Shown: positions 1,736-41,858 of the stretch, piece by piece | Numbering within the stretch: position 1 is the first letter of the stretch | Layout: each line of letters starts with the position of its first letter | Assembly (NCBI GenBank): GCA_946807835.1 | Contig: OX327711.1 | Location: forward strand, 19,627,501-19,691,500 | Origin: Ailanthus altissimus | Lineage: Eukaryota; Streptophyta; Magnoliopsida; Sapindales; Simaroubaceae | Length of the DNA stretch: 64,000 nt | Direction of reading: 5' to 3' | Notes under the pieces: generated by a model | Database searches by the model: none | The model's input: only the letters and a program-made list of their open reading frames with translations | Told to the model about the DNA's origin: nothing | Program-made: the position numbers and the translations under genes

Positions 1736-1945
1736 AGACACATAGCTAGGTAAGAAAGTCTCCTCATCTCAATGAGTTGGGATTCCTAATGTGTTTAAAG
1801 GATTGACGGTTTTTATTTATTTAATTATTTATTTCTTTTGAAGAGAGACTGAGGGGTTAGTTTGAGTTGATGAGTTGAGTTGAGTTGAATGGAATAGAGA
1901 AAGAATTTTCAAGTTTCAGCAAAAGGTCATGCAGTTGAAGCCAAA

Positions 1946-4048
1946 ATGGCTGGAACTCTAAGCAATGTTCATTTCCATGATATCCCAGATGCCATTCTCT
2001 CAGACATATTCTCCTCAGTTACCGATACTCGTACACGCAACGCCATGTCCCTTGTGTGCCTTAAATGGCGCAATCTTGAGCGCTCAACCCGCACATCCCT
2101 CACTCTCCGTGGCAATATCCGTGATCTCTATCTCCTCCCTGATTGCTTCCAATCAATCACTAATCTCGATCTCTCTTATCTCTCGCCTTGGGGACACCCA
2201 CTTTTAGAATCTTCATCAAACCCACGACTCCTTGCCAAAATCCTCGGCAAGGCATTTCCTTCAGTTGTGTCTCTAACCATTTATGCCAGAAACCCTATTT
2301 CTCTTCATTTCCTTGCCCCCGAGTGGCCTAATTTAAGCCATGTCAAACTTGTTCGCTGGCATCAGCGTTTCAATGCTCCTTCAGGTTCCGACTTTTTTGC
2401 ACTGTTTGAGCATTGTAATTCACTTTCTTCTCTTGATCTTTCCCTTTTCTATTGCTGGACTGATGATTTACCGCCGGCACTTGAAGCATACCCTAATATT
2501 GCAACTTCTCTTTCCCAACTGAACATCCTAACTCATTCTTCTTCGGAGGGATATAAATCTAATCAGCTTTTAACCATCACTACTGCTTGTCCAAATCTCC
2601 GCCAATTTCTTGCGATATGTATATTTGACCATAGATTCATTGGCTTTGTTGGGGATGAAACATTGCTTTCTATTGCTTCAAATTGTCCTCGCCTTTCCCT
2701 TCTTCACCTTGTTGATTCTACATCCTTATATAATTCCAGGGCTAATCCTAGTATTGAAGGGTACGCAACTGAAGATGCTAAAATCAGTCATGTTGCTCTT
2801 GGAGACTTCTTTACTAATCTGCCTTCGCTTGAAGAGTTGGTACTTGACGTTGGTAACAATGTTAAAGATAGTTGGCCAGCGCTGGAGTTGCTTAGTTACA
2901 AATGCCCGCGGCTTAAGTCTTTGAAGCTGAGCAACTTCCATGGAGTTTGTAGAGGTATAGATGCCAGGCCAGATGGGGTTGCCCTTTGCAGAGGGCTAGA
3001 ATCCTTGTCCATAAAAAGTTCTGCTGATTTAACTGATTCTGGCTTGATTGCTATTTCTCTTGGCTGTTCAAATCTCACCAAATTTGAGGTTCAAGGTTGC
3101 GGGAGAATCACAGAAATGGGTATTTGGAAATTGGCTCGTATTCTTCAGAGGACTTTGGTTGATGTGAGAATATCTTCCTGCAGAAATCTCAATGCTGTGT
3201 GCTCACTGCAAGCCTTGGAGCCAATTCGGGACCGGATACAACGACTACACATAGATTGTGTGTGGGAAGCTGTCAAGCAATCAGAAGGAGGAGCTAGCAA
3301 TTCAAGTGAACCTGCTACCGGATTCAAAGATTTACAAACAGAAAAACGAATGACGATGTGGGAAGATGAAGCAAGCAGCTTGAAAAAGAAATCCGAGTAC
3401 TGCAGTGGAAATGGCAATGGCCATGGTGGTTTCTCTTCTAGTACGTGGGCCATGTTGCAATGTCTTTCCCTTTGGATTGCTGTTGGTGAGCTGCTGACTC
3501 CAATACGTTTAGCAGGCCTAGAGAATTGCCCTATGTTAGAAGAGATTAAAATAAAAGTAGAAGGTGATTGCAGGTATCAGCCAAAACCTTCCTTGGCTGA
3601 AATATTTGGGCTAAATTCACTCGTTAACTATCCTAATCTTTCAAAAATGCATTTAGATTGTGGTGATGCCATAGGTTTTGCACTTACTGCCCCAATGGGG
3701 CATGAAGATTTGAGCTTGTGGGAACGTTTTTACTTGACTGGGATTGAGAATTTGAATCTCACGGAGCTCAACTATTGGCCTCCACAAGACATGGATGTCA
3801 ATCAAAGAACCCTCTCTCTGCCAGCTGCTGGATTGCTTGCACAATGTCAAACTCTCAGAAAGCTTTTTATTCATGGCACGGCCAATGAACATTTCATGAT
3901 GTTCTTACTGAACATACCAACTCTCAGGGATGTGCAATTGAGAGAGGATTATTATCCTGCTCCGGAAAATGATACCAGCACGGAAATGAGAGAAGATTCT
4001 TGCTCTCGATTTGAGGACGCCCTCAACAGGCGTCAGATTCCTGATTAA
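1946..4048 (+). CDS. MAX2: MAX2/D3/RMS4-type F-box leucine-rich-repeat protein
   Basis: This is a 700-residue, intronless F-box/LRR protein matching the MORE AXILLARY GROWTH 2 family. In known members it is the substrate-recognition subunit of a nuclear SCF ubiquitin ligase. It pairs with the alpha/beta-hydrolase receptors D14 (strigolactone) and KAI2 (karrikin) to target SMXL/D53 repressors for degradation. The F-box lies at about residues 8-50, starting IPDAILSDIFSSV. It is followed by the family signature LERSTR and LDLSYLSPWGHPLL, then about 18 irregular LRRs. A low-complexity Ser/Gly insert occurs around residues 455-495, as in other MAX2 proteins. The C-terminus ALNRRQIPD corresponds to the helix that contacts D14 in D3, and the terminal Asp is present. 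Length, lack of introns and a complete frame all fit a functional gene. ATG 1946 is the only plausible start before the F-box. The family assignment is firm; function is by homology. Confidence 0.95.
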   Translation: MAGTLSNVHFHDIPDAILSDIFSSVTDTRTRNAMSLVCLKWRNLERSTRTSLTLRGNIRDLYLLPDCFQSITNLDLSYLSPWGHPLLESSSNPRLLAKILGKAFPSVVSLTIYARNPISLHFLAPEWPNLSHVKLVRWHQRFNAPSGSDFFALFEHCNSLSSLDLSLFYCWTDDLPPALEAYPNIATSLSQLNILTHSSSEGYKSNQLLTITTACPNLRQFLAICIFDHRFIGFVGDETLLSIASNCPRLSLLHLVDSTSLYNSRANPSIEGYATEDAKISHVALGDFFTNLPSLEELVLDVGNNVKDSWPALELLSYKCPRLKSLKLSNFHGVCRGIDARPDGVALCRGLESLSIKSSADLTDSGLIAISLGCSNLTKFEVQGCGRITEMGIWKLARILQRTLVDVRISSCRNLNAVCSLQALEPIRDRIQRLHIDCVWEAVKQSEGGASNSSEPATGFKDLQTEKRMTMWEDEASSLKKKSEYCSGNGNGHGGFSSSTWAMLQCLSLWIAVGELLTPIRLAGLENCPMLEEIKIKVEGDCRYQPKPSLAEIFGLNSLVNYPNLSKMHLDCGDAIGFALTAPMGHEDLSLWERFYLTGIENLNLTELNYWPPQDMDVNQRTLSLPAAGLLAQCQTLRKLFIHGTANEHFMMFLLNIPTLRDVQLREDYYPAPENDTSTEMREDSCSRFEDALNRRQIPD

Positions 4049-7396: not shown

Positions 7397-10112
7397 TGTC
7401 ACGCCCCAGACCCAAAAGATCTGACACACGACATCACTTACATTCATTCAATAATACTTAAACATTCATTTTAATTTCTTTTAGAATTATAGTAATTGAA
7501 TTATGACTGGGACAATTAGTAAACCGGAGATACGCAGAGTTTTCTCAGAGATTAACACTCTACTACGTCACCAGTAGCAACTTTATTACCGGAAGCCCAG
7601 AATATATTCATTGCAAATTCTTACTTAAAATCAATCCATTACTACACTTGGTGAAACTTAAACTAAATCCAACCACACACAATAAAATAATACATAAGTA
7701 TTTATTCACTAGGGACAAATCAAATATCTTATCCCACGTGTCCCCAAATGAAACACTTAGCAACCTAACAACTTAGGGAACCCAAGGAACAGCAGAAGCC
7801 TTGCCAAATCCACTAAGCACACATGTACCTTATTTACCTGAAATCACCATAAACTATAATGAGTATAAAACTCAGTAAGCATACTAGTTTTTCATATATC
7901 AAATACAAATACATATATGTACACAATGCATATGTATGATATGCTGTGATCAATCAAAATCATAATCTTATCAAATCACATATCATGTAAGCGCTTACAC
8001 ATTCTTTCAAAACACATAATAGGAATACCATTACTCGACTACTACTTAGTAGGACTTACATATCACATATCACATAATGAGCCAAATGTCACTCGTAGGT
8101 GACATACCATATGAGAGGAATAGTACAAGTGAGGTCTTTAAATCACACATATATAACGCTTATGCCCGAAGGTAAAAGCCAAACCCTCACCCTGATCATC
8201 GGTGAGTCCTCTCACATGTACCAATACGCCACCACACGAATGTGATGACTCACACTTCCTTTAGGTACCAATAGGATCCTCCCTACATACGGAACACATA
8301 ACATATACCAATCCCGAAGGAAAGGCCACACATAAAGGCTCCACAAATCACATAAAATGCCTGCTAAGTTAACAGTGAGTTCAAGTACCCTCAAATCACA
8401 AAATATTTCTCATGGACATATTACACTTCAAAAGCTTTCTTTGTTAAACGCATCTTATTTTGGAAAGCTCACTTTCAAAAACACATGTATGTCCATGCTC
8501 AATGTCAATGCTCACATTCATAAACATATATTCACATTTCATATCAAAATATACTTTGACATATCATAAACATATTCTTAACCCCATTTACAAAATCATA
8601 CAAAACAATTATTATGTTTATTGTGATTCCAGTAGTAAGTCTAGTATACTTACCTCTTAGCACTTACAGCTACAAGGCTTAAATCTCCTTAACCTATCAA
8701 TGGAGATCAATCCTTTCATAAGCCTCACAATTCACACAAATACTTAAATAGCTTACAAAATTATACACAATGCATTTAACACATCAAATTGGTCTAAATA
8801 CTTGATTTCTCAAAACTTGTCATTCTGACCACTTACACTTAACAAAATTTTCTAATACATCAAATGATGTCCAATTACTCCAAAATCAGAATGTATTAAT
8901 CTTGACTCATATATCCTTCCTATATATGAATATTATATCAAAATTCCTACACAATCCATTTCATACACATCATCAAATCCAAACTACAAACCTGACAGGA
9001 TCAAGATACTTACTGAACAGTATTCAATCTCCCAATTTTATAAACTCATATACTAACTCAAAAATTATAAAACTACCACATAATTACTCTTAACACATAT
9101 CTCAGTCCATGATAAATATTTCACTTCCAAATCACTGCCAAAAGTATTTTAAAACTATTTTATTCTATAACTTTAAAAATCTGTTAATCAAATATTACAA
9201 TGAGCTGATACACTTTAGAAATTCATAACACTTCAACCACATTGATCTAAATTCTCAATTCAGAGTATATCATATTAGACATATAAAATTATCATATTCT
9301 ACAAATTCATAATTTTTGAAGATCATTCAGTAGGACAAAAATTATTTTTCACTGTACTATACTGTTTACACAGGAAATTTCCAGAATTTCAGGGTCATTT
9401 TGGTAAATTCACTATAAATTCAATTTCCAGAATTTTCAATCGATTCAAAATCTCAGATGATCCTTAACATGTCTAATTTCATATACTCAAAATTCAAAAC
9501 CAGAATCGAATTACAACAATTTATAAAATTCCTAGATCAAGAGGTTATCCAGCAGAAATTCCATAATTCATCATGATTTATCAAACTATCTTATAGATCA
9601 TCATCAATTCTCATATGATCTTACGAAATACACAACAAATCCTCAATTATAAATATTTTCAGAAATCAAAACTTAAAGGAATTAACTTAATTAATACCAA
9701 TAAATTGAGAAATACGTATGATATACCTCTTGAAATTCAAAATTCCAATTTCTTCTTCTTTTTCTTCTTCTTCTCCTCTTTCTCTCTCCTCTATTTCTCT
9801 CTTCTCTCTCTTAAAATGGGTAGCTCGACCTAAAAATGGTAAATTAGAGTTTAAAAGTGTATTTTTATACTAAGAGGCTAATTTTTGGTATTTACGAATT
9901 TGCCCCCAAAACTTTCAAAGTATAACAATTTGGTCCCTAAAATAATTCCAAAGTCTTGCAAATAAACCCAATACTAATAGTATATCCTTAACCTATAAGA
10001 ACACTACTAATAATAATATATAAATCAGGGATCACCCACATACAAATAAAATACGTATATTTATATATATAATTATACATATTCTTACCGGTTATGGATA
10101 CTGGTTACTACG
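7397..10112 (-). mobile_element. Solo LTR of the LOG-carrying gypsy family, reverse orientation
   Basis: This 2716-bp segment is the reverse complement of the 2857-bp LTR at 21371-24227. It begins TGTCACGCCCC and ends GGTTACTACG, where the last base should be A. It is bounded by a perfect 5-bp target duplication CAAGC (7392-7396 and 10113-10117). No internal domain remains, so it is a solo LTR left by LTR-LTR recombination. It interrupts the copia-1 reverse transcriptase. Small ORFs inside it recur in all three LTR copies and are not genes. Confidence 0.9.
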
Positions 10113-21123: not shown

Positions 21124-21370
21124 ATGGCCACACCCAAGTATGAGGTAGATAAATTCAATGGTAAGAATGACTTCAATCTGTGAAAGATGAAGGTTAAGGC
21201 GTTGTTGGTGAGCCAAAGGCTTGGTTCGGATTAGAGGAGATTGCAGCTCCATCTAGTAATGATGAAAAGACGCCAAAGTTATCTAAAGCTGAAGCAGAAA
21301 GAAGGGACATTCAAGAAAGAGCTCATAGCACAATTGTTCTGTCATTGAGCGATGAAGTACTAAGGGAAGT
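21124..21370 (+). pseudogene. copia-2 gag, N-terminal part (split)
   Basis: The ATG at 21124 starts MATPKYEVDKFNGKNDF, the typical start of a copia gag. A stop (TGA at 21181, where a Trp codon is expected) and a frameshift follow. The reading is then interrupted by the 9.55-kb insertion at 21371. The continuation is at 30930. Confidence 0.8.
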
Positions 21371-24227
21371 TGTAGTAACCAGTATCCATAACCGGTAAGA
21401 ATATGTATATTTATATATATAAATATACGTATTTTATTTGTATGTGGGTGATCCTTGATTTATATATTGTTATTAGCAGTGTTTTTATAGGTTAAGGATA
21501 TACTATTAGTATTGGGTTTATTTGCAAGACTTTGGAATTATTTTAGGGACCAAATTGTTATACTTTAAAAGTTTTGGGGGTGAATTCGTAAATACCAAAA
21601 ATTAACCACTTAGTATAAAAATACACTTTTAAAAACCCTAATTCTCTCATTTTGGTCGAGCTACCCATTTTTAGAGAGAGAAGAGAGAAATAAAGGAGAG
21701 AGAAAGAGAAGAAGAAGAAGAAGAAAAAGAAGAAGAAAATGAGAATTTTGGATCTTTAGAGGTATATCACAACTAATTATCAATTTATTGGTGTTAATTA
21801 AGTTAATTTCTTTAAGTTTTGATTTCTGAAAATATGTATAATTAAGGATTTGATGTGTATTTCGTTTGATGTTGTGAGAATTGATGATGATCTATAAGAT
21901 AGTTTGATAAATCATGATGAATTATGGAATTTCTGCTGGATAACCTCTTGATCTAGGAATTTTATAAATTGTTGTGATTCGATTCTGGTTTTGAATTTTG
22001 AGTATATGAAATTAGACATGTTTAGGATCATCTGAAACTTTGAATCGACTGAAAATCTCGGAAATTGAATTTGTAGTGAATTTACCAAAATGACCCTGGA
22101 ATTCTGGAAATTTCCTGTGTAAACAGTATGATACAGTGGAAAATAATTTTTGACCTGCTGAATGATCTTTAAAAATTATGAATTTGTGGAATATGATAAT
22201 TTTATATGTCTAATATGATATACTCGGAATTGAGAATTTGGATCAATGTGGTTGAAGTGTTATGAATTTCTAAAGTGTATCAGCTCATTGTAGTATTTGA
22301 TTAACAGATTTTTAAAGTTATGAAATAAAATAGTTTTAAAATACTTTTGGCAGTTATTTGGAAGCCAAATATTTATCATGGACTGAGATATGTGTCAAGA
22401 GTAATTATGTGGTAGTTTTATAATTTTTGAGTTAGTATATGATTTTATAAAATTGGGAGATTGAATACTGTTCAGTAAGTATCTTGATCCTGTCAGGTTT
22501 GTAGTTTGGATTCGATGGTGTGTATGGAATGGATTGTGTAGGAATTTTGATATAATATTCATATATAAGAAGTATATATGAGTCAAGAATGATATATTCT
22601 GATTTCGGAGTAATTGGACATCATTTGATGTATTAGAAAGTTTTGTTAAGTGTAAGTGGTCAGAATGACAGGTTTTGAGAAATCAAATATTTAGACCCAT
22701 TTGATGTGATAAATGCATTGTGTATAATTTTGTAAGCTATTTAAAGTATTTTATGTGAATTGTGAGGCTTATGAAAGGATTAATCTCCATTGATAGGTTA
22801 AGGAGATTTAAGCCTTGTAGCTGAAAGTGTTAAGAGGTAAGTATACTAGACTTACTACTGGAATCACAATAAACATAATAATTGTTTTGTATGATTTTGT
22901 AAATGGGGTTAAGAATATGTTTATGATATGTCAAAGTATATTTTGATATGAAATGTGAATATATGTTTATGAATGTGAGCATTGACATTGAGCATGGACA
23001 TACATGTGTTTTTGAAAGTGAGCTTTCCAAAATAAGATGCGTTTAACAAAGAAAGCTTTTGAAGTGTAATATGTCCATGAGAAATATTTTGTGATTTGAG
23101 GGTACTTGAACTCACTGTTAACTTAGTAGGCATTTTATGTGATTTGTGGAGCCTTTATGTGTGGCCTTTCCTTCGGGATTGGTATATGTTATGTGTTCCG
23201 TATGTAGGGAGGATCCTATTGGTACCTAAAGGAAGTGTGAGTCATCACATTCGTGTGGTGGCGTATTGGTACATGTGAGAGGACTCACCGATGATCAGGG
23301 TGAGGGTTTGACTTTTACCTTCGGGCATAAGCGTTATATATGTGTGATTTAAAGACCTCACTTGTACTATTCCTCTCATACGGTATGTCACCTACGAGTG
23401 ACATTTGGCTCATTATGTGATATGTGATATGTAAGTCCTACTAAGTAGTAGTCGAGTAATGGTATTCCTATTATGTGTTTTGAAAGAATGTGTAAGCGCT
23501 TACATGATATGTGTTTTGATAAGATTATGATTTTGATTGATCACAGCATATCATACATATGCATTGTGTACATATATGTATTTGTATTTGATATATGAAA
23601 AATTAGTATGCTTACTGAGTTTTATACTCATTATAGTTTATGGTGATTTCAGGTAAATAAGGTACATGTGTGCTTAGCGGATTTGGCAAGGCTTCTGCTG
23701 TTCCTTGGGTTCCCTAAGTTGCTAGGTTGTTGTGTGTTTCATTTAGGGACACGTGGGATAGGATATTTGGTTTGTCCCTATTGAATAAATACTTATGTAT
23801 TATTTCATTGTGTGTGGATTGGATTTGGTTTAAGTTTTATAAAGTGTGGTTATTGGATGATTTTAAGTAAGAATTTGCAATGGATATATTCTGGGCTCAC
23901 GGTAACAAAGTTGCTACTGGTGACGTAGTAGAGTGTTAATCTCTGAGAAAACTCTGCGTATCTCCGGTTTAATAATTGTCCCAGTCATAATTCAATTGCT
24001 ATAATTCTGAAAGAAATTGAAATGAATGTTTAAATATTGTCAAGAGAAGTTTATATTTATATGTTAGGTTATGGTTGATTTTAGTGTTGAACTTACTAGC
24101 AACTTGCTAAGGATTTCTGTGTTGAATGAAAGTTGAAAATTTTGTGTAATATTATTTATGAGTGCACATGCAGTGAATGAATGTAAATGATGTCGTGTGT
24201 CGGATCTTTTGGATCTGGGGCGTGACA
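21371..24227 (+). repeat. 5' LTR of the LOG-carrying element
   Basis: 2857 bp, TG...CA. It is the same length as the 3' LTR and nearly identical in sequence. An internal GAGA/GAAGAA-rich stretch is at about 21675-21740. A related solo copy lies inverted at 7397-10112. Short ORFs inside (for example 23096-23278) are conserved only because the LTR is repeated. Confidence 0.93.
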
Positions 24228-24235
24228 GCTTGTAT

Positions 24236-24247
24236 TGGTATCAGAGC
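24236..24247 (+). promoter_or_regulatory. Primer-binding site (tRNA-Met type)
   Basis: TGGTATCAGAGC begins 8 nt after the end of the 5' LTR. It matches the usual plant initiator-tRNA-Met primer site exactly, so first-strand priming should still be possible. Confidence 0.85.
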
Positions 24248-24380
24248 TAAGATATGATTCTGTAGACTTTTAAGTGTCGTGTCAAGGGAACCGAGCAGAT
24301 GCCAAATCCTTAGGATTGTATTTATAGCTTTGTTGTGTAAAAGTTTGACATATTCCTTAAATTTTGTATGATTTTGTGAA

Positions 24381-24670
24381 GATGACACAGTATCCAAGAG
24401 CTGCTAAGATTGTTGTTGTTGTGGATAATGGTACCTTGTGGATCTTAATGTTACCATTCAGATTTTCTTTTAAGTTATGACTAATATGCTTAGTAAGAGT
24501 GATGTTGAATATCTTATAATGATAATTTGCATGTAATAGAGAAAATTGAGATAATTTTCTCAATGACAAAATATAGAGAAGTAGAGTATTGAAGACATCA
24601 ATTGAAACAACTTTTATTGAAAAGGAAAACAAAAACACAACAACAATAGCAGCAACAAAAATACAATAGA
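24381..24670 (+). pseudogene. gypsy gag remnant in the LOG-carrying element
   Basis: An ATG at 24381 opens MTQYPRAAKI and closes soon after. Near 24610-24670 one frame reads KRKTKTQQQ, stop, QQQKYNRGYG, like the Gln-rich, basic gag region before the zinc knuckle in plant gypsy elements. About 200 codons of gag are missing between these parts. The remnant runs into the 3' end of the LOG coding region, so a capture junction lies near 24670. Confidence 0.5.
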
Positions 24671-24672
24671 GG

Positions 24673-25326
24673 CTACGGAGTGAGATTTAAGTCTATTTTG
24701 CGCTTCTTCTGACTGTCATGAGTAGACCAATCTAACTGATGCAATGTTGGATTAGACAGAGGAATAAAAGACTGCAATTGATCAATCAGTTGATCAACAA
24801 TTGGAGCTGAAATAAGAATTCGTCGTGCTAGAAGTGGGATGAATTGTGTTCCCGCTGCATAGTCAAGAAAAGATATCAACCCGTCGTAAAAGCCATTAAC
24901 ATTTAACAAACCAATGGGCTTTTGGTGGATTTGTAATTGTGCCCATGAGACAATTTGAAAAATTTCCTCTAAGGTCCCGAAACCTCCTGGTAGAGCTATG
25001 AAAGCATCCGCATGCCTAAGCATTTGAGCCATTCGCTCGTGCATAGATGAGACTTGTAACTCATCCCCAACTGTTTTTCCTACAATATTTTCAATAGCTA
25101 GAGGTTTTGGAATGATACCCAAAACTCGACTACCTTTATTGTATGCAGCTTTTGCCACAGACCCCATTAACCCTCGGTTACCTCCTCCATATACTAAATG
25201 TATATTTCGCTCAGCTAATACCTTACCAAGATTTTCTGCAACTTTTGTAAACTCTTCAGTATTCCCAGGGTTAGATCCACAAAAGACACAAATTTTTGTG
25301 AATCGACGAGCTGAGGTTTCCTCCAT
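24673..25326 (-). CDS. LOG: LONELY GUY-type cytokinin riboside 5'-monophosphate phosphoribohydrolase, inside a retrotransposon
   Basis: A complete 217-residue LOG protein encoded without introns. LOG enzymes cleave ribose-5'-phosphate from cytokinin nucleotides and so release active free-base cytokinins in one step; they act in cytosol and nucleus. Signatures: CVFCGS at 13-18, YGGG at 46-49, the catalytic-region arginine Arg98 in MHERMAQM, and the PGGxGTxxE motif as PGGFGTLEE at 113-121 with Glu120/Glu121. Length is normal for plant LOGs (about 210-230). The start is ATG 25326; an upstream in-frame GTG is not a plausible start. The tail KKRKIDLNLTP carries a basic cluster and a terminal DLNxxP motif. 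It lies antisense to the retroelement that carries it. Known plant LOG genes I recall have several introns, so this looks like a retrocopy. No disabling change was seen; expression is unknown. Confidence 0.93.
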   Translation of the reverse strand: MEETSARRFTKICVFCGSNPGNTEEFTKVAENLGKVLAERNIHLVYGGGNRGLMGSVAKAAYNKGSRVLGIIPKPLAIENIVGKTVGDELQVSSMHERMAQMLRHADAFIALPGGFGTLEEIFQIVSWAQLQIHQKPIGLLNVNGFYDGLISFLDYAAGTQFIPLLARRILISAPIVDQLIDQLQSFIPLSNPTLHQLDWSTHDSQKKRKIDLNLTP

Positions 25327-25386
25327 TGTTATGCTCACCCTAATCTTTGAATGTTTTCGAGTTTATATAAGGATGCAATAATAATG

Positions 25387-25395
25387 TATTTATAG
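25387..25395 (-). promoter_or_regulatory. TATA box upstream of the LOG ORF
   Basis: CTATAAATA on the minus strand lies about 60 bp upstream of the LOG start codon. This implies a leader of roughly 30-35 nt. A second TATATAAA at 25362-25369 is too close to the ATG to be the main box. The element-borne LOG may therefore have its own promoter. Confidence 0.5.
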
Positions 25396-26036
25396 AGAAA
25401 CAAATTGATAATAGCTGTGGAGCATATATGTAAGTATGTTCAAGTATATATTTTTCTCGATTCTTGTGAGGTAAAACAAAAAAAAAAAGAGAATGAGTTT
25501 TACTTTATCATTTTATAAGGGACAATAGGTCGCAAAATCTTGAATAAATATATGTTTATATGTAAGTGTGATAAAAATTGTGTCGGAAGTGTGATAAGTT
25601 AGGTAAGATAATTAAGAAAAGTCAATAAAAGCCTATTTCATGGATTTAGGGACTTAGCCATTTTGGCACTAATGGTCGACAATACATCAATGACTTGAAG
25701 ACTTTTTGAGCTAACAATTGGACTTTGGACATGAGGCCAAATTAACTTTATTAATTACAAAGATTTTGTGGTCTTAACATTAATTTTTGGCCGATAGATT
25801 AAAAGCAGATATGAAGAAAGATAAAGCATACTTGACATAAAGATAAAGCAGTAATCAGTCTCTCTTTGATGTGATAGAGCAACACGGATCTAGTTTCTGT
25901 GAAAATAGAAACAGCAATGTAGGTCAAAATGAGTCTCCTTGGTCGCTTTTATCTGTGTCGTATCCGTGAGAGAGGAACTTATGGAGTTGTTGTTCCCATA
26001 CATTGAATGAGGGCTCTGGCGGAGTGGAATGTGGGT
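25396..26036. other. Spacer between the two captured ORFs
   Basis: 640 bp of AT-rich, non-coding sequence. It is presumably LOG promoter DNA and the 3' flank of the upstream minus-strand ORF. No retroelement protein relic was recognised in it. Confidence 0.45.
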
Positions 26037-27116
26037 CTACCATATCTTGATCTTCTCCAGGTGAGCTGGTCTGGATGAAGGATGTACTGGCTTCCTCTTG
26101 GATTTGGGTGTCGGTTGGATAAGGTTGGGAGTCTTGAAGAGGGATAAGTCAAGATTGGGTTGGTGTTGGTCAAGTTCTGTCGGGACAACTGGCTGAGATT
26201 GAGTAGGTTCTGTCGGGACAACTGGCTGAGATTGGGTAGGTTCTGTCGGGACAGTTAGCTGAGGCCATTGGTGAAGGTTATCCATTGCTTGTCTGTATCT
26301 GGCATAATAAGTCATGTTTGGGATATGGTGATGATGAGTAGAGTAATCTGTATTTCTGAGATGTGAAAGATGATATTTTTGTCTTTGTTGGAATTTGAGT
26401 ATATTGGCAAAATTCAGGTCTTCTGTAAAGTCAGCTTCAACTTGTTCCCAAGGTGCAGCATCTTCTGGGGAGATCCAAACAGACGGAGGAATTATTTGAT
26501 TTTCCTGAGCAAGAATTCTTTCAAGGTCTCTCTTTTGCTGAATTACTTCTTCAGGCCAGAGCTTAATTGATCCCTTTAGTGATAGGGTAAATGTGAAGTA
26601 ATCCTTAACAGTGGGGTAATAATGAATCTCGTGATCTGAAATAATCATACCCTTCCGTTGGAGAAGTAAGACTGACCAAAGATGTTGTCTGGGGACTGCA
26701 ACATTTGTGTTGTTTGCAATCATGTATTGAAATTTAGTTATCCACCATGTCTTTGGGTAAAACCATTGGAGAAAAATCAGGGCTGGATGATCTTCATCAC
26801 ATTTTTCTAATTTTTGGATGGTTCTAAGTAATAGGAATTCCATGGCGATTGTATACAGATCCAACAGGTACCATAACAAGTAAAGGACAGGTTTGGACCA
26901 TTGGGAAAATGGGAAAAAAGAGTGCAGGTGAAAGAAAGGGTATTCTAAGTTGAACAAAGGGCCACCAAGAACTGTGAGGCCGTGTTCTTGGACTGCTAAG
27001 ATGGCGTAGTGTCTGATGAATTCTTTGGCACGGGAATGGAGTGTTCTGGTTTTGATTAGGTCTGGAAATTGTGGTGGAGAAAAAGGAACAGGAGGAGTTA
27101 TGATAATGGGATTCAT
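26037..27116 (-). CDS. Unrecognised 359-residue ORF inside the LOG-carrying element
   Basis: An intact ORF from ATG 27116 to the stop at 26037, antisense to the element and in the same direction as LOG. I do not recognise the family. The N-terminal two thirds are rich in aromatic and hydrophobic residues (WFYPKTWWITKFQYMI, HLWSVLLLQRKGMI), like a globular or membrane-associated domain. The C-terminal third is low complexity, with 11-residue repeats PTEPTQSQPVV (two copies plus a degenerate third, from 33-bp DNA repeats near 26170-26270), then a basic KSKRKP segment. No reverse transcriptase, protease or CCHC motif is visible. A CTATAAATAG box sits 62-71 bp upstream. Codon use looks like real coding and the frame is long for this AT-rich DNA. 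It could be an element-specific antisense ORF or a second captured gene. Confidence 0.7.
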   Translation of the reverse strand: MNPIIITPPVPFSPPQFPDLIKTRTLHSRAKEFIRHYAILAVQEHGLTVLGGPLFNLEYPFFHLHSFFPFSQWSKPVLYLLWYLLDLYTIAMEFLLLRTIQKLEKCDEDHPALIFLQWFYPKTWWITKFQYMIANNTNVAVPRQHLWSVLLLQRKGMIISDHEIHYYPTVKDYFTFTLSLKGSIKLWPEEVIQQKRDLERILAQENQIIPPSVWISPEDAAPWEQVEADFTEDLNFANILKFQQRQKYHLSHLRNTDYSTHHHHIPNMTYYARYRQAMDNLHQWPQLTVPTEPTQSQPVVPTEPTQSQPVVPTELDQHQPNLDLSLFKTPNLIQPTPKSKRKPVHPSSRPAHLEKIKIW

Positions 27117-27177
27117 TATGAAGATGGTAAGAAGGTTGGTTTTATTTATTGCTAGAAAAGTGATTATGAGGTTTAGG

Positions 27178-27187
27178 CTATTTATAG
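27178..27187 (-). promoter_or_regulatory. TATA box upstream of the 359-codon ORF
   Basis: CTATAAATAG on the minus strand, about 62-71 bp before the ATG. Further upstream, at about 27232-27246, are ACGT/TGACG-type motifs (ACGTGGATGACGTTA on the plus strand) of the kind bound by bZIP factors. Together they look like a compact, independent promoter. Confidence 0.5.
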
Positions 27188-27834
27188 AGTTTTATGAAAG
27201 AAAATCAATAATCGTTTTGTCCTTTCCTTTTACGTGGATGACGTTAAAGGAATAGTTAAAAGAATCATATTTGCCATCGCAGTAATTGTGCTAGTAGAAT
27301 CTTTTCTATTTGAAATCGAGCATATTAGAAAAAGCAGACATGTCAATCTCAATGAGAAAATGATGTCCAATAAGGTGGACTATTTTTTTAAGAGTTAAAG
27401 TAAGAGATATAATGTTAAGATCTATAGTTTAAGAATCAGTTGAACTAAAGGTCTTTTTATTGAAGTTGATTTTTGATCGTTTAAGATAATGCTTTCAATA
27501 TTCTGATTTGAATGACAACTTAGTTGCGTAGAAATACTACATTTTTTTTTTAATGATATCAAGGTAGTGAATGATATTATGACGTATGAGTATATGTTGA
27601 AGGGATTAAAATTTTTAAAGGAGTTAAGAATTTTATGTAAGAGATTAGTATGGGTATTCTACATCTATGTTATTCTTTAATGAATGAAAGGTGAAGTGTA
27701 TAGATACCCATTAAATATTGAACGAATGGAAAAAAAAAAGAATAAAAATATGTGTGTATAATTTTATAAGTCCATAATGTGTGTCATATGTTTATTTTAT
27801 GGATATATGTTTCGTACTCCTCTCGTATACTCAG

Positions 27835-28050
27835 CTATGAGCCAACTTAGAGATAATCTAACATATGAATGAGTATTTATTAGGATTTTGGACCACAATG
27901 AGCAAATCCTATATACAAGGAAGATTGCTTTGTAAATGTTTTATGAATAAACTATACAGTTGAAAAGGAAAATTGAGAATGAAAAGAAGAAATGAGATCT
28001 AAGTATCCTCATGTATGTGCTTAAGTTATGAATTTCGAGGACGAAATTCT
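27835..28050 (+). pseudogene. Ty3/gypsy polyprotein C-terminal remnant
   Basis: Translation gives pieces that match the end of plant chromovirus (Tekay/Del-like) polyproteins: QLRDNLTYE, ILDHNEQILYTRKIALV and KEEMRSKYPHV, then NFEDEIL just before the polypurine tract. Stop codons interrupt it. It shows that the element descends from a Ty3/gypsy retrotransposon, even though most of pol has been lost. Confidence 0.75.
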
Positions 28051-28053
28051 TAT

Positions 28054-28067
28054 AAGGAGGGGAGAAT
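28054..28067 (+). promoter_or_regulatory. Polypurine tract of the LOG-carrying element
   Basis: AAGGAGGGGAGAAT lies directly before the 3' LTR. It is the usual plus-strand priming site and appears intact. Confidence 0.8.
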
Positions 28068-30924
28068 TGTAGTAACCAGTATCCATAACCGGTAAGAATA
28101 TGTATATTTATATATATAAATATACGTATTTTATTTGTATGTGGGTGATCCTTGATTTATATATTGTTATTAGCAGTGTTTTTATAGGTTAAGGATATAC
28201 TATTAGTATTGGGTTTATTTGCAAGACTTTGGAATTATTTTAGGGACCAAATTGTTATACTTTAAAAGTTTTGGGGGTGAATTCGTAAATACCAAAAATT
28301 AACCACTTAGTATAAAAATACACTTTTAAAAACCCTAATTCTCTCATTTTGGTCGAGCTACCCATTTTTAGAGAGAGAAGAGAGAAATAAAGGAGAGAGA
28401 AAGAGAAGAAGAAGAAGAAGAAAAAGAAGAAGAAAATGAGAATTTTGGATCTTTAGAGGTATATCACAACTAATTATCAATTTATTGGTGTTAATTAAGT
28501 TAATTTCTTTAAGTTTTGATTTCTGAAAATATGTATAATTAAGGATTTGATGTGTATTTCGTTTGATGTTGTGAGAATTGATGATGATCTATAAGATAGT
28601 TTGATAAATCATGATGAATTATGGAATTTCTGCTGGATAACCTCTTGATCTAGGAATTTTATAAATTGTTGTGATTCGATTCTGGTTTTGAATTTTGAGT
28701 ATATGAAATTAGACATGTTTAGGATCATCTGAAACTTTGAATCGACTGAAAATCTCGGAAATTGAATTTGTAGTGAATTTACCAAAATGACCCTGGAATT
28801 CTGGAAATTTCCTGTGTAAACAGTATGATACAGTGGAAAATAATTTTTGACCTGCTGAATGATCTTTAAAAATTATGAATTTGTGGAATATGATAATTTT
28901 ATATGTCTAATATGATATACTCGGAATTGAGAATTTGGATCAATGTGGTTGAAGTGTTATGAATTTCTAAAGTGTATCAGCTCATTGTAGTATTTGATTA
29001 ACAGATTTTTAAAGTTATGAAATAAAATAGTTTTAAAATACTTTTGGCAGTTATTTGGAAGCCAAATATTTATCATGGACTGAGATATGTGTCAAGAGTA
29101 ATTATGTGGTAGTTTTATAATTTTTGAGTTAGTATATGATTTTATAAAATTGGGAGATTGAATACTGTTCAGTAAGTATCTTGATCCTGTCAGGTTTGTA
29201 GTTTGGATTCGATGGTGTGTATGGAATGGATTGTGTAGGAATTTTGATATAATATTCATATATAAGAAGTATATATGAGTCAAGAATGATATATTCTGAT
29301 TTCGGAGTAATTGGACATCATTTGATGTATTAGAAAGTTTTGTTAAGTGTAAGTGGTCAGAATGACAGGTTTTGAGAAATCAAATATTTAGACCCATTTG
29401 ATGTGATAAATGCATTGTGTATAATTTTGTAAGCTATTTAAAGTATTTTATGTGAATTGTGAGGCTTATGAAAGGATTAATCTCCATTGATAGGTTAAGG
29501 AGATTTAAGCCTTGTAGCTGAAAGTGTTAAGAGGTAAGTATACTAGACTTACTACTGGAATCACAATAAACATAATAATTGTTTTGTATGATTTTGTAAA
29601 TGGGGTTAAGAATATGTTTATGATATGTCAAAGTATATTTTGATATGAAATGTGAATATATGTTTATGAATGTGAGCATTGACATTGAGCATGGACATAC
29701 ATGTGTTTTTGAAAGTGAGCTTTCCAAAATAAGATGCGTTTAACAAAGAAAGCTTTTGAAGTGTAATATGTCCATGAGAAATATTTTGTGATTTGAGGGT
29801 ACTTGAACTCACTGTTAACTTAGTAGGCATTTTATGTGATTTGTGGAGCCTTTATGTGTGGCCTTTCCTTCGGGATTGGTATATGTTATGTGTTCCGTAT
29901 GTAGGGAGGATCCTATTGGTACCTAAAGGAAGTGTGAGTCATCACATTCGTGTGGTGGCGTATTGGTACATGTGAGAGGACTCACCGATGATCAGGGTGA
30001 GGGTTTGACTTTTACCTTCGGGCATAAGCGTTATATATGTGTGATTTAAAGACCTCACTTGTACTATTCCTCTCATACGGTATGTCACCTACGAGTGACA
30101 TTTGGCTCATTATGTGATATGTGATATGTAAGTCCTACTAAGTAGTAGTCGAGTAATGGTATTCCTATTATGTGTTTTGAAAGAATGTGTAAGCGCTTAC
30201 ATGATATGTGTTTTGATAAGATTATGATTTTGATTGATCACAGCATATCATACATATGCATTGTGTACATATATGTATTTGTATTTGATATATGAAAAAT
30301 TAGTATGCTTACTGAGTTTTATACTCATTATAGTTTATGGTGATTTCAGGTAAATAAGGTACATGTGTGCTTAGCGGATTTGGCAAGGCTTCTGCTGTTC
30401 CTTGGGTTCCCTAAGTTGCTAGGTTGTTGTGTGTTTCATTTTGGGACACGTGGGATAGGATATTTGGTTTGTCCCTATTGAATAAATACTTATGTATTAT
30501 TTCATTGTGTGTGGATTGGATTTGGTTTAAGTTTTATAAAGTGTGGTTATTGGATGATTTTAAGTAAGAATTTGCAATGGATATATTCTGGGCTCCCGGT
30601 AACAAAGTTGCTACTGGTGACGTAGTAGAGTGTTAATCTCTGAGAAAACTCTGCGTATCTCCGGTTTAATAATTGTCCCAGTCATAATTCAATTGCTATA
30701 ATTCTGAAAGAAATTGAAATGAATGTTTAAATATTGTCAAGAGAAGTTTATATTTATATGTTAGGTTATGGTTGATTTTAGTGTTGAACTTACTAGCAAC
30801 TTGCTAAGGATTTCTGTGTTGAATGAAAGTTGAAAATTTTGTGTAATATTATTTATGAGTGCACATGCAGTGAATGAATGTAAGTGATGTCGTGTGTCGG
30901 ATCTTTTGGATCTGGGGCGTGACA
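28068..30924 (+). repeat. 3' LTR of the LOG-carrying element
   Basis: 2857 bp, the same length as the 5' LTR. The differences seen by eye are single bases near 23744/30441, 23898/30595 and 24186/30883. It ends at GTGACA and is followed by the duplicated GAAGT. Confidence 0.93.
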
Positions 30925-30929
30925 GAAGT

Positions 30930-31515
30930 ATCAGGTGAGACGACGGTAATAAGTCTTTGAAATAAGCTTAACTCTCTTTATATGAGGAAATTATTGGTCA
31001 ACAGATTGCATATGAAGAAGAAGTTGTATCAGTTGTCCATGTCAGAGGGGATGCCAATGAAAGATCATATAGACGCCTTTAATAAGATCATCATTGATCT
31101 TGAGTCTATCAACATCGAGATAGAAGATGGAGATAGAGCAATTATCCTGCTGAGTTCACTCCCCAAGAGCTATGAGAGTTTTGTTGATACGCTACTCTAC
31201 GGCAGAAAGAGTTTAACGATGAATGATGTGAAATCATCATTAAACTCAAAGTTATTAGGGAAGCAAATTGAGGGCAATGCAGAAAACTTATCTGTAAGAG
31301 GAAGGCTCTCATACAGAGATGAGAAGAAAAAAGGCTCAAGATCGAAGTTTAGGACTCCTAGAAAGTGCTATTACTGCAAGAAAGAGGGGCACTTCATAAA
31401 AGACTATCTTGAGAAGAGAGCACAAGACAAGAAGAAAGCAGATACTGCACTTGCCTATGATGATAGCTATAACAGTGCAGAGACACTCATCGCTACTAAT
31501 GATAAGAACTCTTAA
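30930..31515 (+). pseudogene. copia-2 gag, C-terminal part
   Basis: Continues the gag split at 21371. The open stretch 30982-31515 reads as a UBN2-type gag (LSMSEGMPMKDHIDAFNKI, AIILLSSLPKSYESFV, LNSKLLGKQ). It is followed by a zinc knuckle CYYCKKEGHFIKDY in which the final Cys of CX2CX4HX4C is replaced by Tyr, so nucleic-acid binding would be impaired. Confidence 0.85.
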
Positions 31516-39053: not shown

Positions 39054-39106
39054 ACCACGTAATGAAGATAGATGATCAATCATTAAAGGTAACCTAGTTG
39101 AGAAAA

Positions 39107-41858
<2,752 letters not shown>

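Follow-up and report, generated by a model that had tools for sequence, protein, structure and literature searches.

The window analysed here is a stretch of 64,000 nucleotides from Ailanthus altissimus (positions 19627501-19691500 of contig OX327711.1, in a host genome of 939 Mb and 37 contigs). It contains, at positions 21371-30924, a long terminal repeat (LTR) retrotransposon that carries a complete gene of the LONELY GUY (LOG) type. It is apparent that, within this one genome, LOG serves LTR elements of at least two kinds as a many-copy, mobile and selected accessory gene. Considered as a whole, the data are probably best explained if LOG is a selected accessory gene of a young, non-autonomous element family, present in a cassette that is shared with another kind of element and altered in its substrate pocket. 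The gene looks like the element's own tool rather than a chance passenger.

The features of the element are as follows.

21366 to 21370, no strand: left copy of the 5-bp target site duplication, GAAGT
21371 to 24227, forward strand: 5′ LTR, 2857 bp, TG...CA
24235 to 24247, forward strand: primer binding site TTGGTATCAGAGC, 3′ of the 5′ LTR; motif common to all 18 copies scoreable at both ends (see below)
24613 to 24618, reverse strand: AATAAA polyadenylation signal beyond the 3′ end of LOG; conserved in 21 of 21 copies, coordinates reckoned
24673 to 25326, reverse strand: LOG-like open reading frame (ORF), 217 aa, complete and intronless
25389 to 25394, reverse strand: TATA box TATAAA, at -68 of the LOG ATG; kept in 21 of 21 copies, coordinates reckoned
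26037 to 27116, reverse strand: second antisense ORF (ORF2), 359 aa, of no known family
27837 to 28053, forward strand: decayed stretch, resembling on visual inspection the chromodomain region at the end of a chromovirus pol
28052 to 28067, forward strand: polypurine tract ATAAGGAGGGGAGAAT; identical in all 18 scoreable copies
28068 to 30924, forward strand: 3′ LTR, 2857 bp
30925 to 30929, no strand: right copy of the target site duplication, GAAGT

All of the hallmarks of an LTR retrotransposon are present. The two LTRs differ by 3 mismatches and 0 gaps and have TG..CA ends, the duplication is of 5 bp, and the purine run AAGGAGGGGAGAA ends directly at the start of the 3′ LTR. The initial annotation, which was made from the sequence of this stretch alone, had described the LTR pair, the duplication, the primer site, the polypurine tract and the complete intronless LOG ORF of 217 codons on the opposite strand, and each of these was confirmed. 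The primer site is taken by us to be of the initiator-Met tRNA type. Between the LTRs lie 3840 bp with two antisense ORFs, LOG and ORF2; the only other ORF of at least 80 aa from an ATG in this interior is one of 89 aa that overlaps LOG. No gag or pol was found between the LTRs by Pfam in either LOG or ORF2, and the element is classed as non-autonomous; its family would be moved by the enzymes of another element.

The host genome was searched for further copies, as had been proposed initially. With the LOG protein as query, the best 150 of 6200 first-look candidates were all full length and 98-100% identical, and 147 of the 150 scored were free of stop codons, so that the genome holds at least 150 copies. 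A 601-bp non-coding stretch beside LOG gave 1247 first-look candidates, the best 40 of which (window included) were scored at 99-100% identity. Twenty copies were then taken from the protein list, namely the first 10 after the window, 3 with a stop codon and 7 spread over the list. LTRs of the same family adjoin LOG in all 20, and perfect 5-bp target duplications, all different, flank each of the 18 that could be scored at both ends (the other two being L012 and L020). In 6 of these 18 the LTRs show no substitution over 2.7-2.9 kb, with two gap columns in one. For the window element, the 3 LTR mismatches correspond to an age of about 40,000 years at a substitution rate of 1.3e-8 per site per year. 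These results show that the family is young and was mobile very recently, in agreement with the age first proposed for the element. An artefact of assembly, which had been named as a possible source of the LTR pair, is very unlikely in view of the separate and different duplications of the 18 copies.

Divergence among 21 copies was 1.4% for LOG, a value biased low by the protein-based choice of copies, 4.1% for the LTRs, 4.7% for the 3′ non-coding DNA and 3.5% for ORF2. In eleven pairs of LOG copies that were noted, the two members are on one strand at a spacing of 6.4-6.7 kb, which is what tandem elements with a common LTR would give.

The initial annotation had pictured a single recent capture of a host gene. 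A host LOG retrogene struck once, by chance, by an element would account for the lack of introns in the window LOG. This explanation is scarcely credible, given LOG at 150 scored and nearly identical places, the same-family LTRs beside all 20 copies fetched, the occurrence of a homologous unit in elements of a second kind, and the position of the encoded protein in a separate clade on a long stem (both described below).

Selection on LOG was estimated from the ratio of nonsynonymous to synonymous polymorphism per site (pN/pS), in line with the initial suggestion to compute dN/dS. In the protein-chosen copies the ratio was 0.06-0.07, a biased value that is superseded by the one reported next. 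Because of that bias, copies were chosen again, by means of the 601-bp non-coding stretch, and LOG was taken from 39 of them; together with the window, 36 gap-free sequences were analysed. LOG was full length without gaps in 35 of the 39, and 3 of these contain a stop codon, which leaves 32 of 39 intact. The other four comprise one copy that is 9 bases short, one with an extra base and two matched in part. The proposition that every copy might be disabled is refuted by these counts.

Pairwise pN/pS in the 36 sequences was 0.23. Distinct changes numbered 44 nonsynonymous and 38 synonymous, with 2 stops (ratio 0.35; binomial test against neutrality, p = 7e-6). Changes common to several copies were mostly synonymous (12 nonsynonymous, 25 synonymous; pN/pS 0.145), and private changes were nearly neutral (32 nonsynonymous, 13 synonymous; pN/pS 0.74). 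The low ratio for shared changes and the near-neutral one for private changes argue that selection acts on the transposing lineages. The pattern is that of a gene which would be needed while the element spreads and which the single copy would no longer need after landing, when its decay becomes nearly neutral. As this sample is 99% like the window in the non-coding DNA used to choose it, it speaks for the window's own subfamily.

The signals of a transcription unit were also found to be conserved. A TATA box of LOG's own had been claimed initially, and the claim holds for the box at -68, which is present in 21 of 21 copies and lies in the least diverged 20-base block upstream of the LOG ATG (divergence 0.009); a second TATA-like box, at -41, occurs in the window alone (1 of 21). 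LOG would be transcribed in antisense from its own TATA promoter, with the AATAAA signal at the other end of the unit.

Further LOG copies, many of them with open frames of 250 or 253 aa, were obtained when the genome was searched with pieces of AtLOG3. Among the best 150 places scored in each of two such searches, stops in the matched part were seen in 11 and in 3, and an intron-bearing host LOG was not singled out. Four places fetched from these searches (L068, L069, L071 and L072) proved to be transposon copies. In L068 and L069, a pol with reverse transcriptase, RNase H and integrase domains (rve in L069) is followed by an ORF of about 181 aa and then by LOG in sense orientation. L068 forms a complete element with its neighbour L070, with LTRs of 1.44 kb that are 97.9% alike, the duplication AGTAC, a gag (Retrotrans_gag) and a primer site of the form TAGCGCCGTTGCCGGGG, which is presumably of the Asp tRNA type. 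These gag-pol elements may be Athila-like, to judge from features that include the reverse transcriptase, RNase H and integrase domains and the primer site. L071 and L072 belong to a second subfamily, with roughly 71-79% DNA likeness to L068 in the matched parts.

The ORF that lies between pol and LOG, of a carlavirus-type nucleic-acid-binding kind, has the following positions in the four loci.

L068, 3745 to 4287
L069, 5744 to 6289
L071, 972 to 1517
L072, 1060 to 1605

In each of the four loci it scores 26-34 bits against PF05515 (Viral_NABP), for which the cut-off is 23; its match to PF01623 (Carla_C4) passes the cut-off in L071 and L072 and falls short of it in L068 and L069. A virus-like gene is thereby paired with LOG in the gag-pol elements. 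When viral contigs were searched for relatives of LOG, pattern-matched stretches were seen, none of which encodes a relative.

The window LOG protein is 72% identical to those of L068 and L069. Approximately 900 bp align at 76% between the window and the gag-pol loci; the alignment takes in the TATA box, which reads CTCTATAAATACATT on either side, then the coding region, and extends past AATAAA. No DNA similarity was found outside the LOG unit between the window element and loci L068-L072. The LOG units of the window family and the gag-pol elements are homologous from TATA box to AATAAA, and two otherwise dissimilar kinds of LTR element therefore share a complete cassette within this genome. 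Ratios of nonsynonymous to synonymous substitution rates (dN/dS) for LOG were 0.12-0.13 between the two gag-pol subfamilies, at a dS of 1.9-2.1 that is near saturation, 0.30-0.32 between the window and L068/L069 (dS 0.54-0.55), and 0.21-0.22 between the window and L071/L072. By dS, the presence of the unit in the gag-pol elements predates the time at which the non-autonomous family came to share it, and the transfer would have run from the former to the latter.

These data bear on two further explanations. LOG could be passive cargo, intact merely because the family is young and descends from few source elements. The great youth of the copies and the near-neutrality of the private changes in the sample chosen through non-coding DNA are what such a history would produce. 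Against it, the LTRs and non-coding parts have diverged by 4-5% and yet the shared changes in LOG are mostly synonymous, the TATA box and AATAAA are conserved, and dN/dS is low between gag-pol subfamilies whose dS is near saturation; purely passive carriage is regarded as unlikely. Alternatively, the selected trait could be an antisense transcript, or a feature of the DNA or RNA, and not the protein. Both LOG and ORF2 are antisense in the window family, and an action through double-stranded RNA has been proposed for antisense ORFs of plant LTR elements in the parts of PMC7264820 consulted. Such a trait is highly improbable as the object of selection here, since selection distinguishes synonymous from nonsynonymous sites and LOG stands in sense orientation in the gag-pol elements. 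The LOG protein is kept working by selection in the transposing lineages.

The window LOG is recognizable as a member of its family by several measures. It matches PF03641 (Lysine_decarbox) at 133 bits and TIGR00730 of NCBIfam at 182 bits, above the cut-off; the score for the NCBIfam equivalog CtkRMPhLog is 123 bits, below the cut-off of 300. An AlphaFold2 model (mean predicted local distance difference test score, pLDDT, 85.7) aligned with AtLOG3 at a Foldseek template modelling score of 0.94 by target length. The Rossmann-type LOG fold and the PGGxGTxxE motif are both present. In CgLOG, whose numbering is used here, a catalytic role is proposed for the pair Arg99 and Glu122, the adenine is held by Met96, Lys100 and Glu121, and Met96, His97, Lys100, Glu125 and Trp129 are the proposed holders of the prenyl group, according to the portion of PMC4979012 available to us. 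Arg99 and Glu122 are present in the window LOG. In the pocket, Met96, His97 and Trp129 are kept, Lys100 is replaced by Met and Glu125 by Gln, and the cytokinin-type adenine/prenyl pocket (Met96, His97, Lys100, Glu125, Trp129) is not intact. The initial statement that all LOG signatures are present was mistaken, because residues of this pocket have changed together.

The replacement is not peculiar to the window. Of 120 proteins listed from 3377 database matches, 117 form one clade of 118 with the window LOG when set against 109 ordinary plant LOGs. Four proteins were dropped from the trees: P0121, a relative of ORF2, and P0002, P0003 and P0005. The latter three, from Xanthoceras, are long gene models with repeated LOG parts, as if neighbouring copies had been fused by gene prediction. 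The clade is separate from the ordinary LOGs on a long stem, with a Shimodaira-Hasegawa-like support of 1.0 (227 proteins) and an ultrafast bootstrap of 79 when the set was reduced to 75. Among its listed members are 37 from Reevesia pubescens, encoded on many chromosomes, as well as proteins of Xanthoceras, Paulownia and Populus. When aligned with 12 ordinary plant LOGs, the window LOG shows 43-49% identity to them.

Within the clade, Lys100 is kept in 10 of 118 members, all of which keep Glu125; of the 108 without Lys100, 107 also lack Glu125. Lys100 gives way to Met, Leu or Ile together with a change of Glu125, mostly to Gln or His. His97 is kept in 64 of 118, Trp129 in all 118, and Arg99 and Glu122 jointly in 109. 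Every one of the listed catalytic and pocket residues is present in 109 of 109 ordinary LOGs sampled; by name, these are of the LOG1, LOG3, LOG7 and LOG8 types, with group III (LOGL10 proper) not knowingly sampled. Since the members that keep Lys and Glu branch near the base, the pair probably changed after the clade arose.

The sequence data lead us to read the window LOG as a working hydrolase with a rebuilt pocket, probably an active nucleoside-5′-monophosphate hydrolase with an altered preference. It is likely, although unproven, that the element LOG is no longer a cytokinin enzyme. The element might use it to its own advantage, by shifting the state of dividing cells with respect to nucleotides or cytokinin. 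Alternatively, as the initial annotation had it, LOG may be an ordinary cytokinin-activating enzyme, the elements serving to spread hormone dosage; its pocket changes would then be tolerated. The full LOG fold and the retention of the catalytic pair and of Trp129 across the clade are in keeping with this. In the parts of PMC11593424 consulted, moreover, plant LOG activity does not track tree position, and four wheat LOGs with identical critical residues differ in activity. The nearly always joint loss of Lys100 and Glu125 from the clade, set against their presence in every ordinary LOG sampled, makes an ordinary enzyme doubtful.

Several points weigh against an altered, selected accessory enzyme in mobile elements. 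Lys100 is among the AMP (adenosine monophosphate)-binding residues listed in the part of PMC4979012 seen, where alanine versions are said to nearly abolish CgLOG activity, and for this reason the window LOG might lack activity towards substrates of the AMP type. Likeness to AtLOG3 and AtLOG8 guided the sampling of ordinary LOGs, which favours invariance. The contrast between private and shared changes comes from one sample; the 21 protein-chosen copies do not show it (private 5 nonsynonymous and 29 synonymous, shared 3 and 14), an absence that protein-based choice would itself produce. The gag-pol LOG elements were examined at four loci only. Decay may be under way in L068 and L069, whose LOGs are substituted at glycines of conserved motifs and differ from each other, by very few changes, with a dN/dS of 1.28. 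Finally, most clade proteins of other plants are only putatively element-borne; for Populus this is supported by an LTR-element LOG mentioned in the accessible part of PMC9289625.

ORF2, which the initial annotation does not mention, seems to be under constraint too, with a pN/pS of 0.30 in the protein-chosen sample and a TATA box of its own at -70 in 20 of 21 copies. Stops were found in 3 of the 20 fetched copies (L010, L012 and L022), and ORF2 was matched in two pieces in L018, L020 and the window. Its one relative among 1058 candidates scored is the 397-aa P0121; relative to it, the window ORF2 is out of frame after residue 327, and the remainder is recovered as a separate piece by tblastn. 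Searches of ORF2 for protein families and for relatives in the PDB found none, and structure prediction gave a mean pLDDT of 34.

Other features of the window are these.

7397 to 10112, reverse strand: solo LTR belonging to the element's family, with about 95% identity to the window LTR, a 135-base gap and the duplication CAAGC on both sides
30982 to 31515, forward strand: copia gag fragment (PF14223), part of the insertion target

The element interrupts a copia element that is older than itself; removal of one GAAGT makes the gag frame continuous across the junction, and a stop follows ten codons past it. A long ORF at 1898-4048 (forward strand) reads, we presume, like the F-box protein MAX2, and pieces at 39098-41635 (forward strand) presumably like the gene of a cysteine protease of papain type that ends in a granulin-like part. 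An origin of the window element from a Del/Tekay chromovirus is a lead and not a result, because the pol-like remnant at 27837-28053 was read by eye and has no match in Pfam. Del LTRs measure 1.1-4.4 kb in the part of PMC4029996 consulted, a range into which the window LTR length falls.

The presence of LOG in plant LTR elements is, as such, already in print. Two Athila-like elements of Steinbauerova et al. (2011) are reportedly similar to LOGL4. In the accessible text of PMC9289625, a YgdH/LOG domain is described in LTR elements of Citrus sinensis and C. clementina, and of Populus trichocarpa with a filter off, and the YgdH domain is tied to LONELY GUY (PMC9289625, citing Steinbauerova et al. 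2011). As far as these are described there, they resemble our elements in that eudicot Ty3/gypsy elements carry a LOG-type domain as an additional gene, and L068, L069, L071 and L072 look to be of that kind. From what is described there, the window family differs in being non-autonomous, with long LTRs, the primer site TTGGTATCAGAGC and an antisense LOG, and further in its very high copy number, the measured selection, the shared transcription unit and the pocket change. AtLOG3 (2a33) and AtLOG8 (1ydh) have the same fold, PGGxGTxxE motif and catalytic Arg and Glu; unlike plant LOG phosphoribohydrolases, the window LOG lacks Lys100 and Glu125, is intronless and is mobile.

Grande, RIRE2, Retand and PvRetro13 also carry an antisense ORF inside an LTR element, that of Grande with its own promoter, but there the ORF lies between pol and the 3′ LTR of gag-pol elements (PMC7264820, in the parts seen). 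The antisense ORFs treated in those parts mostly lack clear similarity to known proteins, whereas that of the window is a recognizable enzyme. A host-type enzyme is likewise kept as the accessory gene of an LTR lineage in Ty3/gypsy elements of orchids, which encode an AlkB-type RNA demethylase; the enzyme is a different one, and its activity was shown there (PMC9289625, in part), whereas LOG is known here from sequence. No mention of LOGL, cytokinin or YgdH was found in the available portion of the extra-ORF review PMC7264820, nor of cytokinin, LOG or lonely in that of the gene-capture review PMC13317346. In the open-access literature searched, subscription papers being mostly outside this scope, neither a non-autonomous family bearing LOG nor selection on such a family nor the pocket change was found to have been reported.

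It is common to regard the genes that plant transposons have captured as passengers. The LOG of the window element, probably a young member of a high-copy family in which it is a standing accessory gene, behaves instead like a viral accessory gene, although it encodes a host-type hormone enzyme: it appears to be under selection in lineages that transpose and to be freed from it once a copy has landed, LTR families share it, and its substrate pocket has been rebuilt. The selection pattern, the cassette sharing and the pocket change are the parts that would surprise a specialist. There is also a warning for annotation, in that many proteins in the clade that are named 'LOGL10' or are unnamed (Populus, Reevesia, Xanthoceras, Paulownia) may be transposon genes, which would inflate counts of the LOG family. 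It is possible, and is suggested only tentatively, that LOG and the carlavirus-type ORF form an ancient accessory module of eudicot Ty3/gypsy elements, a toolkit like that of retroviruses, that alters the host's nucleotide or cytokinin state, and perhaps silencing. The LOG unit would then have been passed on as a cassette to a non-autonomous family of other descent, in which selection on the element keeps it and its enzyme took on a new specificity. With the LOG system it can be tested directly whether retroelements promote their own spread by manipulating the metabolism of hormones or nucleotides.

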